Shown one piece after another: positions 985-6,385 of a stretch of 64,000 nucleotides of DNA (its first letter is position 1; every line of letters starts with the position of its first letter). Source of the DNA: a virus. A program made the position numbers and the translations under genes. The notes beneath the pieces are model-generated. The model was not told the origin of the DNA. It did no database searches and saw only the letters and a list, made by a program, of their open reading frames with translations. The stretch is from IMG/VR virus record IMGVR_UViG_3300025645_000038, positions 100,846-164,845 of that record; one strand, written 5' to 3'.

Positions 985-1728
985 ATGGCTGAAGTCAAAT
1001 TCCCTACAGAAGTAGTGGATTTGCCGTCAAAGGGATTATTGTATCCAGAAGGTAGCCCTCTATCATCTGGTAAAATAGAAATCAAATACATGACGGCAAG
1101 AGAAGAAGATATTCTAACATCTGCTAACCTTATTAAACAAGGTGTGGTGGTTCAAAAATTATTAGAGTCTCTTATTATAGACAAATCAATTAAGGTAGAT
1201 GATTTACTGATTGGTGATAAAAATGCTGTTTTAATAGCAGCTCGTATTCTTGCTTATGGTAAAGAGTATGAAGTTGAAATATTTGGTAGGAAGGTAGAAG
1301 TTGATTTAACTCAATTAAAAGATAACAAGTTAGATGAGAGTATAGTTACAAAAGGAGTTAATGAGTTTGAGTTTGAATTACCCGCTACAAAAAGAAAATT
1401 AACTTTTAAAATGCTTGTATCAGGCGATGAAAAAACAATTGATGATGAGGTTAAAGGTTATGAGAAAATACATGGTATTGGATACGAACTAACCACAAGA
1501 TTAAAACACCAAATTATTTCAGTAGATGGTGATACTAAAAGAGCTAGTATTAACTCTTTTGTAGATAATGAGTTCTTATCAAGAGATTCAATGGCTTTTA
1601 GAAATCATATATCTGATATTATGCCAGATGTGGATATGACATCAACTTTTACTGATGAGGATGGAAACGAAAAGGAGTTCACGGTCCCTATGACCGTTAC
1701 GTTTCTTTGGCCTAACGCCGGAATATAA
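985..1728 (+). CDS. gp26: Baseplate hub / tail assembly protein (T4 gp26-like)
   Basis: The 247-residue protein has the hallmarks of the T4 gp26 baseplate family: VDLPSKGLLYPEGSPLSSG, then KYMTAREEDILTS near residues 35-47, and a C-terminus ending in a TFLWPNAGI-like segment. In T4 relatives it helps assemble the baseplate hub. Its position just before the tape measure corresponds to the slot of the tail assembly chaperone in other tailed phages. A further open frame in the +1 register overlaps its end (see 1694-1927), suggesting a frameshifted longer product. ATG follows an AGGAG site. Confidence 0.75.
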   Translation: MAEVKFPTEVVDLPSKGLLYPEGSPLSSGKIEIKYMTAREEDILTSANLIKQGVVVQKLLESLIIDKSIKVDDLLIGDKNAVLIAARILAYGKEYEVEIFGRKVEVDLTQLKDNKLDESIVTKGVNEFEFELPATKRKLTFKMLVSGDEKTIDDEVKGYEKIHGIGYELTTRLKHQIISVDGDTKRASINSFVDNEFLSRDSMAFRNHISDIMPDVDMTSTFTDEDGNEKEFTVPMTVTFLWPNAGI

Positions 1729-1927
1729 ACCACAAATACACGAACAACTTTTTCAAATAAGTTTTAACTCACAAGGTATGTTCTCTTTTTCAGAGGTATA
1801 TAACATGCCTATATATCTCCGTACATTCTACTTTAAGAGATTACAAAAACATTTTAAGGATGAAGCTGAAGAGGTCAAGAAAGCTCAACAAAGTAACAAA
1901 TCATCTATTCCATCTTATAAAAAATGA
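1694..1927 (+). CDS. Frameshift-dependent tail assembly chaperone-like ORF
   Basis: This 77-codon open frame lies in the +1 register relative to the gp26-like gene and overlaps its last 35 nt. It has no usable start codon before ATG 1778, which itself has no properly spaced ribosome binding site. The residues before that ATG (TPEYKPQIHEQLFQISFNSQ) run smoothly into a chaperone-like segment (VYNMPIYLRTFYFKRLQKHF). I recall this pattern from proteins in the same position in other T4-like phages. Expression by a +1 or -2 ribosomal frameshift between 1694 and 1728 is the simplest explanation. Without it only a 49-residue product from 1778 is possible. Confidence 0.6.
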   Translation, partial: PLRFFGLTPEYKPQIHEQLFQISFNSQGMFSFSEVYNMPIYLRTFYFKRLQKHFKDEAEEVKKAQQSNKSSIPSYKK

Positions 1928-2190: not shown

Positions 2191-3924
2191 ATGGCTAAAA
2201 AAGTTGATAGTAGAGAACAGGTAATAAACTTAAAAAAACAGACTGAAGAGTTAAGAAAACAAAGTGAAGTTATGCGTAGTCATAACGACTACTCTAAGTC
2301 ATATACTCAGTCTCTTGAAAAGGGTAGATCTATTCTCAAAGATATAACTGGTTTACAAAGTGACCAAGCACAGATTTCAAAAAATACTCAAAGTATTGAG
2401 AAGAATATAAGCGCTCTTTTCGCAAAAAAAGAAAAGAGTGAAGCACTAATAAATAGTCTAAAGATAAGTCAATACTCTAATAGTAAAAAATTAACATCAG
2501 AAGCAAAAAACTTTTCTGGTCTTACCGATAGATTTTTGAAAGGTGAAGTAGAGTTGGATGAACTTTACAGAGCTAGAGAACAATTTATTGGAACAGACTT
2601 TTACAACACACTCGAAGAGTTAATTGAACTTATGGAAAAGTCCCCAAACTTATCAGAAAAATTAAGTTTAGAGGCTGATGCTCAAAAGAAGATAGACGAT
2701 TTTAGAAAAAAGGTAAAAGAAACTTCAGCTTTTCTAAGTAGTCCAAAGGCTATGGGAGTAGCTGCTGTAGGATTACTGGTTCAACAGATGGGTGATTTTG
2801 CTAGTAAGGCTTTTGAAGCTAGACAATCTTTAGGAACAACAGCAGTTGAGTCAGCTAGAGTAGCTGGTAATCTAAAAGTAGCTGGGTTAGCTGCTAAAGC
2901 TGTTGGTGGTAGTTCAGAACAAGCTGAAGCAGCTGTAATGTCATTGGTTGATGAGTTTGGTTCTGTATCCGTTATAAGTGCTGGTGTATCAAAACAATTA
3001 GGTTTGGTAACAGGTCAGTTTGGTTTAAGTGGAGACAATGCTGGTAAGTTATTAAAACAAATGCAGGCTATAAATGGTTCTTCAATAGAAACCAATCTAA
3101 ATCTAATAAGTTCTGTTGGTGAACTTGCAAGAGCTGAAGGAGTTGCGCCTGCTAAAGTTCTAAACGACATAGCTGGAGATACGGAGACATTTGCTAAGTT
3201 CGCAAAAGATGGTGGAAAAAATATAGGTGCAGCTGCTATTCAAGCTGCTAAGTTAGGTTTAAATATGTCTACAGTAGCCGGTATAGCTGAAAATCTATTA
3301 GACTTTGAGAGTTCGATAGAAAAGCAGATGGAAGCATCTGTTCTATTGGGTAGACAACTTAACTTAGATAAAGCTAGAGAGTTGTCCTTAATGGGAGACT
3401 TAGAAGGTTTACAAAAAGAAGTATTAAAACAAGTTGGTTCAGAAGCTGATTTTAACGCTATGAATGTGATGCAAAGAAAAGCTCTTGCTGATGCTATCGG
3501 TGTTAGTGTTGCCGACTTAGGTAAGATGGTAGCTGGTGAACAAACATCAGCACAGGCAGCAGCTGATAAGGTTAAAGCTCAAGAGAAATCATTAAAATTA
3601 CAAGAAAAAGCTTCTTACGCAGCTTTAGTGACAGCAGCTGCACAAATCGGTGCAAGTTTTGGAAAATTTGGTCCAGTTGGATTTGCACTAGCCATACCCG
3701 CAATTATGAAGTTATATTCTTTAGCAAAAGGAGCTCCAAAAGCTCAAACCGGTGGTGTAGTAAGAGAAACCGGTATGGCTGTAGTGCACAAAGGTGAGAC
3801 GATAGCTGGAACTCAGTTTGGTGGTAGAGAAAGTAATAACTTACTAAAAGAATTAATTAAACAAAACTCAACCTTAATGGGTAGACTAACAAACAAAGTT
3901 GGTGAAATGGCATTAGGTTCATAG
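2191..3924 (+). CDS. Tail tape measure protein
   Basis: The 577-residue protein begins with about 170 residues of coiled coil rich in K, E and Q. A hydrophobic, alanine- and glycine-rich centre follows (about 185-470, including SPKAMGVAAVGLLVQQM and repeated AGL/AAK helices). It ends in QTGGVVRETGMAVVHKGE, a C-terminal pattern common in tape measures. The length is close to T4 gp29 (590 residues). At the usual 0.15 nm per residue it would set a tail of roughly 85 nm; this figure is an inference. Confidence 0.8.
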   Translation: MAKKVDSREQVINLKKQTEELRKQSEVMRSHNDYSKSYTQSLEKGRSILKDITGLQSDQAQISKNTQSIEKNISALFAKKEKSEALINSLKISQYSNSKKLTSEAKNFSGLTDRFLKGEVELDELYRAREQFIGTDFYNTLEELIELMEKSPNLSEKLSLEADAQKKIDDFRKKVKETSAFLSSPKAMGVAAVGLLVQQMGDFASKAFEARQSLGTTAVESARVAGNLKVAGLAAKAVGGSSEQAEAAVMSLVDEFGSVSVISAGVSKQLGLVTGQFGLSGDNAGKLLKQMQAINGSSIETNLNLISSVGELARAEGVAPAKVLNDIAGDTETFAKFAKDGGKNIGAAAIQAAKLGLNMSTVAGIAENLLDFESSIEKQMEASVLLGRQLNLDKARELSLMGDLEGLQKEVLKQVGSEADFNAMNVMQRKALADAIGVSVADLGKMVAGEQTSAQAAADKVKAQEKSLKLQEKASYAALVTAAAQIGASFGKFGPVGFALAIPAIMKLYSLAKGAPKAQTGGVVRETGMAVVHKGETIAGTQFGGRESNNLLKELIKQNSTLMGRLTNKVGEMALGS

Positions 3925-3934
3925 GAGATAAGAA

Positions 3935-6385
3935 GTGGCTTTAGAAGACTTAGTATCAGACTTATCTAATTTCAAAGGACAATCTCAGTACGATGATTTA
4001 GATGGTCAGATAAAAAATGGTGTGGATTTTATTCCTAATACGGATGCTCCTGGTTTTACTCCTAAAACAGATTTAGAGTCTTTATACAATAAAGTTAAAG
4101 ATGGTACAGTGGTTGCTCCAAACTCTGGAGTGGTATCTAATGAGAAAACAAGAAATCCTTATGGTGCACAAGGAGAGTATCTTGTTGCTAACGGAATAGG
4201 TATAGCAAATCCATCTCATATAATAAGTGGTGATAATATCTTGGGAGTCAAGGTACAACCACAATTCGTAACAGACTTTATGACCACACCATTAGCTGAT
4301 TACAATAGTAGATTTTCACTATCCACACCTTTGGGTGCAGGAACTAAAACACTTAAAGTTAGAAAAGAGTCTTTTAGAACAGTAGAGGGTGAATCTCCAT
4401 TTGATAAATTTATAAAACCATTTTCTGTAGAAACAACAAAAAACATTTACGGAGATAGCGACTATATAAAAGATTTATTTGAGTTTAGAAAAGATGGTAG
4501 GGATACATTTAAAAACGTTCCAAATGGAGTGGATGGTAATGGTTTATTTAGTACTGCTGATTTTAGAAAGGTAGCTAACAAAGGCCCATTTGATGGTAAC
4601 AACACTCATCCAATTATATTAAGAAAGCCGGGTTCAAATTGGGACAGTGTTCTATCAGAAACACCTGGATTAGGTGGAACGATAGGTGGTGTTTTACAAG
4701 GTGCTTTAAGCGTATTTGGTTTACTAACAAAGAGTTCAAGAAATATTGCTGATAAAGCTAGAATAGGTACTTATTTGTTATCAGATCCTGGTAAATTATT
4801 TATTGCTAAACAATTTGGTATGCAATTACTTAATCCTACAATAGAAAGTAAGATATACAATCCTCTTTCTACTTTAGGTATAGCTGGAGCAAATAGTTTA
4901 CTGGATGGAGATGTAAGGGGATTATTACAGGCAGCTGCTTCTTTTATCTTACCTGTAAGTCATGTAGAAAGACATTTAGGTGGTGGTAGATATGAGGATA
5001 TAATGCCGTTAAGAGAATTGCCTGCTATGGCAAAACTTTTACTACCTGGCGCAATAAAAAGTGTAATTCCTGATAATGGCTTTGATACAAAAGCTAAATA
5101 TGGTTTTGGTAGTAGACTTGCTTTACAAAGTAATCCTGAAATAATACCAGAAGTATCAGCATACGGTTACACCATTGGTGGAAAAGATTTAGGAACTTCT
5201 TTACTTTTTATGAATCCTAATAAATATTTATTCCCAATTTCATCTGCTCCTAAAAGTATTGGTCCTGATGGTAGTATTTCATTTTTAGGTGGTCCTAGAT
5301 TTGCTGCTGTGGATGCTGATAGAGCTGAAAATACACAAAAAATAGGAAATACTCATGGTGGTGTTACTTTCAATGACGCAGCTTCAAATAATTTTGGTAG
5401 AGCAGCAAATGGTACTGGTGATAGAACAAGATTTCATACATCAACATATTCTGAACTAAGAAGAGAAAACAGATATGAGAAAGATATTAAAACATCAGCA
5501 GTAAACCAAAATACACATATGCAAAATACTGAAGAAAGAAGAAAAGAGTATAAAAAGATAAATGATAATATAGGTAATCCTGGAGGAACTACTTTTTCAA
5601 CAACAAATGGTACAGGAATAGTTGTTAATGAAATACTTGGTGGTGGTGTAAAAAGAGGACAAGGCCCTAGTACAATATCAAGTGCTGTAGATAAAGTTAA
5701 CATTATTCCATATGGTAGTGATGGTAATGGGGACATACCTACCGATCATCAAAGTACAAAAGATTTTATTAAATTTAGGTTCTTTGATGTGGTGAACAAA
5801 AAGTTCATTATATTTAGAGCTATTTTAGAAGGCATAACAGATACCATTACGCCGGAGTATAGTGAGGAAAGATATATTGGTAGGCCTGATAAACTATTTA
5901 CATATCAAGGTGTTGATAGAAGTTTATCGTTTACTTTTAGTATCTATCCCAAAACAAAACAAGAGTTGCCAGTTTTGATGGAGAAATTAAATTACTTAAT
6001 AGGGTTGTGTTATCCATCATTTACAACAGGTGACAGAATGGTTACACCATTTATAGATTTAACATTAGGTGATATGTTTGTGAGTACTCCTGGTATTTTG
6101 AGTTCTCTAACAGTTACTGTTGAGGAGCAAAGCACATGGGAAATAACCGATGGTTTACAATTTCCACATTTTATAAAAGCTGCATGTGAGTTTAGACATA
6201 TTGGTAAGCATGTTCCTGTATCAACAGGTAGACATTATGATTTACCATTTGGGTTAGATGACGCAAGACAAAAACAAATTGATAGATTTACAAGCGATAA
6301 AGCATTTGGATTTAATCAGTATCCAAGTAGAAAAGAAGATTTTAGAAAAGAAATATTTGGTTCTTTAGGACAACCAAACGAATAG
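3935..6385 (+). CDS. Large baseplate / tail-tube initiator-like structural protein
   Basis: The 816-residue protein starts with GTG after a clear AGGAG site. Its C-terminal part (about residues 615-780) has strands with the pattern GITDTITPEYSEERYIGRPD, LFTYQGVDRSLSFTFSIYP and LNYLIGLCYP. I associate this pattern with tube-like baseplate proteins that start tail polymerisation, the role played by gp48/gp54 in T4. The first 600 residues are low in recognisable motifs and rich in N, G and D. Its position between tape measure and LysM-type wedge gene supports a baseplate role. The exact T4 counterpart is not resolved. Confidence 0.6.
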   Translation: MALEDLVSDLSNFKGQSQYDDLDGQIKNGVDFIPNTDAPGFTPKTDLESLYNKVKDGTVVAPNSGVVSNEKTRNPYGAQGEYLVANGIGIANPSHIISGDNILGVKVQPQFVTDFMTTPLADYNSRFSLSTPLGAGTKTLKVRKESFRTVEGESPFDKFIKPFSVETTKNIYGDSDYIKDLFEFRKDGRDTFKNVPNGVDGNGLFSTADFRKVANKGPFDGNNTHPIILRKPGSNWDSVLSETPGLGGTIGGVLQGALSVFGLLTKSSRNIADKARIGTYLLSDPGKLFIAKQFGMQLLNPTIESKIYNPLSTLGIAGANSLLDGDVRGLLQAAASFILPVSHVERHLGGGRYEDIMPLRELPAMAKLLLPGAIKSVIPDNGFDTKAKYGFGSRLALQSNPEIIPEVSAYGYTIGGKDLGTSLLFMNPNKYLFPISSAPKSIGPDGSISFLGGPRFAAVDADRAENTQKIGNTHGGVTFNDAASNNFGRAANGTGDRTRFHTSTYSELRRENRYEKDIKTSAVNQNTHMQNTEERRKEYKKINDNIGNPGGTTFSTTNGTGIVVNEILGGGVKRGQGPSTISSAVDKVNIIPYGSDGNGDIPTDHQSTKDFIKFRFFDVVNKKFIIFRAILEGITDTITPEYSEERYIGRPDKLFTYQGVDRSLSFTFSIYPKTKQELPVLMEKLNYLIGLCYPSFTTGDRMVTPFIDLTLGDMFVSTPGILSSLTVTVEEQSTWEITDGLQFPHFIKAACEFRHIGKHVPVSTGRHYDLPFGLDDARQKQIDRFTSDKAFGFNQYPSRKEDFRKEIFGSLGQPNE

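Follow-up and report, generated by a model that had tools for sequence, protein, structure and literature searches.

Frameshifting within tail chaperone genes is a known kind of event. It is described as broadly conserved among long-tailed phages, with T4 as the exception (PMC5009743). Most tail phages studied shift the chaperone in the −1 direction, opposite to the shift considered here, and T4 is said not to shift. Lambda gpG/gpGT and the other G-T tail chaperones are the closest layout, but lambda uses −1 shifting, whereas our locus has its extension in the +1 frame, behind a 5′ stem-loop and an SD-like element (PMC5009743). A relation between lambda G and the PF12322 protein of our locus has not been shown. 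The only +1 chaperone shift in the same review is that of the archaeal virus HSTV-2 (PMC5009743). This predicted shift and SPP1 gp17.1* (CCC_UAA) resemble our locus in being +1 cases in a tail gene (PMC6316719, PMC5009743). Unlike our locus, the +1 case of SPP1 is the tube protein, and its chaperone shifts −1; the site differs from ours, and no 5′ hairpin is described in the text consulted (PMC6316719, PMC5009743).

The +1 shift of prfB (RF2) is alike in its CUU_U or UUU_U slip, CUU_U being the prfB slip (PMC5009743), and in having an upstream SD-like element; CUU UGG C in our locus resembles CUU UGA C. In contrast to prfB, our locus has no stop in the A site, and the SD-like element lies 24–42 nt away with a hairpin between, rather than adjoining the slip codon. 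In SARS coronavirus, a stem-loop located 4 nt upstream (5′) of the shift site attenuates the natural −1 shift, and it can stimulate +1 shifting in synthetic constructs; how such a stem-loop hinders −1 and stimulates +1 movement has been called mysterious (PMC5009743). The hairpin of our locus, in contrast, would accompany a natural +1 shift.

T4 gp26 and gp51 belong to the same family as our protein, and gp51 looks like the short domain joined to a related extension at the C-terminus. T4 makes the two forms from two separate genes, whereas our locus would use one gene and a shift. Both T4 proteins are tail assembly chaperones according to Vladimirov et al. 2022, as cited in PMC10885494 and PMC12846349. 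Cyanophages S-PM2, P-HM1, and S-SM2 likewise have an extension overlapping the gp26 end, but in the −1 frame, at TCT/GAT/GGT TTT TTC with a −1 heptamer. In a 2025 paper, Vladimirov et al. are the reference for polyT −1 signals in T4-like phages; −1 shifting may thus already be known for some relatives. We found no literature report of +1 shifting in the PF12322 family, and none describing the 5′ hairpin or a switch of direction; the search did not cover Vladimirov et al. 2022 in full.

Gene order and predicted proteins

We analyzed a 64,000-nt part of a 164.8-kb viral contig, hereafter the window. Its genes are ordered as tube protein, 69-aa ORF, gp26-like gene, extension frame, 66-aa ORF, and tape measure (Table 1).

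Table 1 Features of the gp26-like locus in the window.
Feature	Position	Strand	Evidence
Tube protein gene	244–732
69-aa ORF between the tube and chaperone genes	742–951
gp26-like gene, short chaperone form (TAC-N), 247 aa	985–1728	+	ORF; PF12322; phrog_150
SD-like purine element AAGGAG, putative part of the shift signal	1672–1677	+	Peak of SD-like words, synonymous bias
5′ stem-loop ACGGTC-CCTAT-GACCGT, ending 4 nt before the slip site	1681–1697	+	MFE, covariation
+1-frame TGA, blocking any +1-frame start farther upstream	1691–1693	+	Sequence
Proposed slip site TTT CTT TGG CCT (frame 0), +1 slip at UUU_C or CUU_U	1702–1713	+	Conservation
+1-frame extension, 72 codons from GGC, then TGA; C-terminal part of the predicted long form (TAC-NC, 313 aa)	1709–1927	+	pN/pS, homologs, AF2
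66-aa ORF with GGAG upstream, between chaperone and tape measure	1987–2187	+
Tape measure protein gene	2191–3924	+	BLASTP to annotated tape measure of Flavobacterium phage immuto, E 9e-17

The gp26-like gene is present as a single copy in its genome and was assigned to the baseplate hub family phrog_150. Its match to Pfam PF12322 (T4_baseplate) is marginal (26.2 bits; curated cut-off 24.5) and was missed in a first genome-wide look; the homolog in Bacillus phage SP-15 scores 99.9 bits and agrees also by fold. The short form and the extension were modeled by AF2 separately, not as a fused protein. The short-form model (pLDDT 88.9) matched predicted baseplate hub assembly proteins by fold in BFVD. 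A PDB fold search with the short form gave nothing significant, the only chaperone in the list being HK97 2ob9 (E 2.1, probability 0.30, target TM 0.39). The extension was modeled as three helices (pLDDT 83). The function of the gp26-like gene in tail assembly is inferred from its position close upstream of the tape measure gene, as in G/GT-type tail assembly chaperones, from synteny, from the frameshift layout, and from second-hand literature on T4 26/51, without binding or virion data.

The 69-aa ORF has hydrophobic stretches and possibly encodes a small membrane protein, and showed no significant family match. Family searches with the 66-aa ORF gave no match over the cut-off. At the corresponding position, Mel-JY01 carries an ORF of comparable size, with no detectable similarity between the two.

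Relative to the gp26-like coding sequence, the +1 frame is open for 77 codons (1694–1927) and overlaps its end by 35 nt, confirming the overlapping frame described in the initial annotation of this DNA. The start given there, 1670, was too early, as the +1-frame TGA makes 1694 the first possible codon. That annotation had also assigned the frame a single ATG with a poorly spaced ribosome binding site. Two ATGs are present: AAGG precedes the one at 1778 by only 1 nt, and GAGG the one at 1805 by approximately 8 nt. Neither is conserved; in many relatives, the first is missing and NLP replaces NMP at the second. The frame was placed there right before the tape measure, but the 66-aa ORF intervenes.

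Conservation and frame of selection at the switch site

The extension was found by tblastn in immuto, Microcystis phage Mel-JY01, and other phages, overlapping the gp26 end every time, and scans of IMG/VR gave several hundred more loci. Conservation was evaluated on 210 non-identical homologous loci; these share ancestry, and the counts are therefore not independent events. The extension was directly observed in the +1 frame in 198 of them and in the −1 frame in 11, and one further locus (L207) is +1 with an upstream indel. The conservation in relatives called for with the initial annotation was thus found for both overlap and reading frame. The open +1 frame of the window is far beyond chance, because homologous extensions hold the same relative frame in these 198 loci. 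L207 was considered as a −1 case and rejected, as its indel is followed, approximately 300 nt downstream, by a normal +1 site. The gp26-like gene of L207 is internally frame-broken at approximately 1100–1160, which reflects either a sequencing error or a damaged gene.

The frame-0 switch codons TTT YTT TGG CCT were exact in 192 of the 198 +1 loci. The exceptions were TTT TTA TGG CCT (L191), TTC TTT TGG CCT (L237), TTT TTT TAC CCT (L244), TTT CTA TTC CCT (L003), CTT TTT TGG CCT (L241), and one locus with CCA. An in-frame UUU followed by C or U occurred in all 196 scored loci, every exception included, and also in L003, RM378, SP-15, LIS04, GXN1, and LuckySocke despite their otherwise differing sites; a slippery codon with cognate or near-cognate +1 re-pairing is thus present throughout. 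The Phe codon of the site is TTT in 195/196 loci, compared with 78% in the rest of the gene and 83–94% at two other conserved Phe columns. Similarly, the CCT codon is used in 195/196 versus 34%, with the caveat that CCT is read in the +1 frame too. A T7 run is present in 135 of the 198 loci and the TTTCTTT of the window in 57. A slow or stop codon in the A site is common but not universal in +1 shifts. No stop was seen in this position; nearly all loci have UGG, and distant relatives have other codons. The cause of a pause is unclear, since the 0-frame A-site codon is neither a stop nor obviously rare. The canonical X XXY YYZ with a −1 extension is absent from the window and its kin, being confined to the 11-member −1 clade and cyanophage-like relatives. 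A −1 reading in the window was rejected, as that frame is closed.

We calculated pN/pS on 39 loci of the window type. In the five codons before the site, the ratio was 0.31 in the gp26 frame and 4.5 in the +1 frame, whereas past the gp26 stop it was 0.18 in the +1 frame versus 2.1 in the other two, which also hold stops. The frame under selection was thus observed to change at the site, and therefore the +1 frame starts to matter there. Usable start codons were not generally available. Upstream of the switch point, the +1 frame contains neither ATG nor GTG nor TTG in 169 of 196 loci. Among 186 complete loci, 14 have none of these anywhere in the extension and 27 have no ATG.

Upstream stem-loop and SD-like element

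We folded 27-nt windows along gp26 in 98 loci less than 80% identical to each other. The gene showed one deep MFE dip, just before the site (mean −6.6 kcal/mol versus an average of −1.7). Synonymous recodings of this region gave −2.9, and 60 of the 98 loci ranked within the bottom 5% of their respective controls. Stems of 6 bp or more were present in 62 of the 98 loci (control mean 32, maximum 47). Covariation was directly observed. In 28 loci selected for the register of the window, 97% of cells were paired and compensatory changes occurred at 4 of 6 pairs (C-G to U-A or G-C; G-C to C-G or A-U; A-U to G-C), with a covariation score reached by 0 of 500 shuffles. Selecting the loci inflates the pairing percentage, but not the types of compensatory change. 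The unselected 98 loci gave 57 double changes versus 30 in shuffled data, and every slid version was lower. Over all 98 loci, only 65% of cells pair in the register of the window; the hairpin is weak or register-shifted in part of the +1 loci, and other clades use neighboring registers. It was not evident in RM378, GXN1, or LIS04, and the −1 clade has no hairpin (energy −2.4 versus −2.8 in controls). An Rfam search gave no match, and folding downstream of the site gave no clear signal of a stimulatory structure (mean z −0.56; 17 of 98 loci in the lowest 5%).

SD-like words in the +1 loci peak 24–42 nt 5′ of the slip site, at 66–70% in the peak bin versus 0–17% per bin elsewhere in gp26. The element tracks the register of the hairpin and lies 2–5 nt before the stem in most loci. 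At this element, GAG and AAG are preferred synonymously over GAA and AAA. In the −1 clade, it is found in 4 of 11 loci. A close, prfB-like arrangement was rare, with the core 7–18 nt upstream in only 5 of 196 loci and 4–6 nt upstream in none. In a 42-nt fold of the window sequence, AAGGAG is able to pair with TTCTTT of the slip site (1672–1708) as an outer helix around the hairpin in free RNA. The possibility that such pairing is all that the purine element does is disfavored, though not excluded; G is preferred over A synonymously even at all-U sites.

Proposed shift, competing explanations, and direction in relatives

We consider it very probable that a programmed +1 frameshift by tRNA-Phe (UUU to UUY) yields a minor 313-aa tail assembly chaperone beside the major 247-aa form, although there is no protein evidence. 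The shift of the ribosome, the slipping tRNA, the efficiency, and the roles of the hairpin and SD-like element are inferred, as is the chaperone function, in the absence of peptide, reporter, or ribosome profiling data. Most ribosomes would terminate at 1726–1728 and release the 247-aa protein, and a fraction would slip one base forward at UUU_CUU_UGG (1702–1710). The most likely slip is that of the P-site tRNA-Phe from UUU to the overlapping UUC, or else of tRNA-Leu from CUU to UUU. Judging from the aligned sites, UUU_Y is the common denominator, at which tRNA-Phe would stay cognate on moving from UUU to UUY; L191 and L003 allow a slip only at the first codon and L237 only at the second. In the window, a slip at UUU would give the junction ...TVTFFGLTPEYK, and a slip at CUU the junction ...TVTFLGLTPEYK. 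Reading in the +1 frame to 1927 would then add the 72-residue helical extension. By analogy with lambda gpG/gpGT, the long form may be a minor partner linking the tape measure protein to the tail tube. The stem-loop 4 nt 5′ of the site and the SD-like element ahead of it would stimulate the forward slip; the hairpin may push the ribosome forward by refolding as it leaves the ribosome or by shortening the distance from the SD to the site.

The extension could instead be a small separate gene, translated independently after gp26 from its own start (ATG 1778 or 1805). Short coding sequences are indeed annotated here in immuto (4839–4949), SP-15 (3755–3874), and S-PM2 (gp51, 2191–2364), and ATG 1805 of the window has GAGG approximately 8 nt before it. 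Against this, residues are conserved from GGC 1709 onward, far ahead of either ATG; the ATGs themselves are not conserved, and +1-frame selection begins at the slip site. Because of the +1-frame TGA 8 nt before the slip site and the 14 of 186 complete loci without a start codon, independent initiation fails as a general explanation of the extension, and we regard a separate gene as very unlikely. The initial annotation had named as refuting evidence a homolog in relatives that starts separately from its own ribosome binding site; relatives were checked and did not show this, most having no start codon upstream of the switch point and some none at all. Its proposal of programmed frameshifting is supported by the overlap, the frame, and the 12-nt site kept across diverse phages, and by the canonical −1 heptamer that the −1 clade has at the same place. 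It had left +1 and −2 side by side. Frameshifting by −2 has been reported for phage Mu. Here it would reach the same frame with one residue added (junction in the window ...TVTFLFGLTPEYK), and U7 sites could re-pair after such a move. Re-pairing would be poorer at TTTCTTT and in L191 (TTT TTA TGG), L237 (TTC TTT TGG), L003 (TTT CTA TTC), and GXN1 (TTC TTT CGT), whereas a +1 slip from UUU to UUY stays cognate in all of them. In addition, attenuation of −1 shifting by a 5′ stem-loop has been reported, as has its ability to stimulate +1 (PMC5009743). We thus favor +1 by re-pairing logic and sequence variants, without a junction peptide, and consider −2 very unlikely.

Two further explanations dispense with a ribosomal shift. 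RNA polymerase could slip on the T run and produce mRNAs reading into the extension, as the T7 runs of 135/198 loci would permit; but in the 57 loci with TTTCTTT the run is broken into 3-nt stretches, and the ribosome is the simplest target for the covarying stem-loop and the SD-like element, which leaves transcriptional slippage very unlikely. The site is also homopolymer-like, such that a sequencing or assembly error could hide a true in-frame fusion. The same frame break in approximately 200 non-identical loci and in the finished isolates immuto, Mel-JY01, SP-15, and RM378, together with the conserved WP codon pair and the nearby frame-0 stop, makes this scarcely conceivable, and it was rejected for the breadth of the pattern.

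Ribosomal shifting into the extension is predicted in both directions among relatives. The 11-member marine clade (support 100/100) reaches the extension by −1 at A AAU UUC (TTC TTC) and is nested among +1 lineages. Distant +1 relatives include RM378 (TTT TTT TGG), SP-15, LIS04, GXN1, and LuckySocke, and distant −1 relatives XacN1, Atu_ph07, and LR756511; S-PM2, P-HM1, S-SM2, pf16, ACP17, phi-pp2, and VP-1 are also −1, mostly at T TTT TTC or T TTT TTT. A gp26 tree of 55 rows requires a minimum of four changes of direction, with the reservation that its deep branches are long and uncertain. We lean only slightly towards regarding the SD-like element, the covarying stem-loop that ends 2–6 nt before the slip site, and UUU_YUU_UGG as a new three-part bacterial +1 signal in a family that switched direction several times for the same product. 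The conserved 5′ stem-loop offers a natural comparative test bed for upstream RNA structure favoring forward slippage.

T4 itself has two separate PF12322 genes (26 and 51), and the shifting phages have one. The C-terminus of T4 gp51 matches the −1 extension of S-PM2 (E 5e-5); the link to T4 came via S-PM2, as single-sequence HMM comparison with T4 gp26/gp51 gave no match. An R-centered motif is common to all extensions. Because of the copy numbers, the S-PM2 match, and this motif, T4 gene 51 is best read, by homology, as encoding the long form, which fits the cited Vladimirov et al. 2022. The wider kin of T4 thus appear to shift, in both directions, with the separate 26 and 51 of T4 as one of three solutions.

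In cyanophages, a T TTT TTC heptamer precedes the small gene after gp26, which occupies the −1 frame, and the gene annotated as gp51 is probably a −1 frameshift extension of gp26 and not a separate gene. Genes named "gp51" or "baseplate hub assembly catalyst" are found in S-PM2 (L343, 2191–2364), P-HM1 (L344, 1720–1881), and S-SM2 (L349, 1732–1905). Current annotations miss the long form, calling fragments separate genes or omitting them. In isolate genomes, the extension is annotated merely in part, under the name of a hypothetical protein (L001, 4839–4949; L339, 3755–3874; L340, 3803–3958; L342, 3909–4031), and in LIS04 (L337) and GXN1 (L004) the extension is unannotated.
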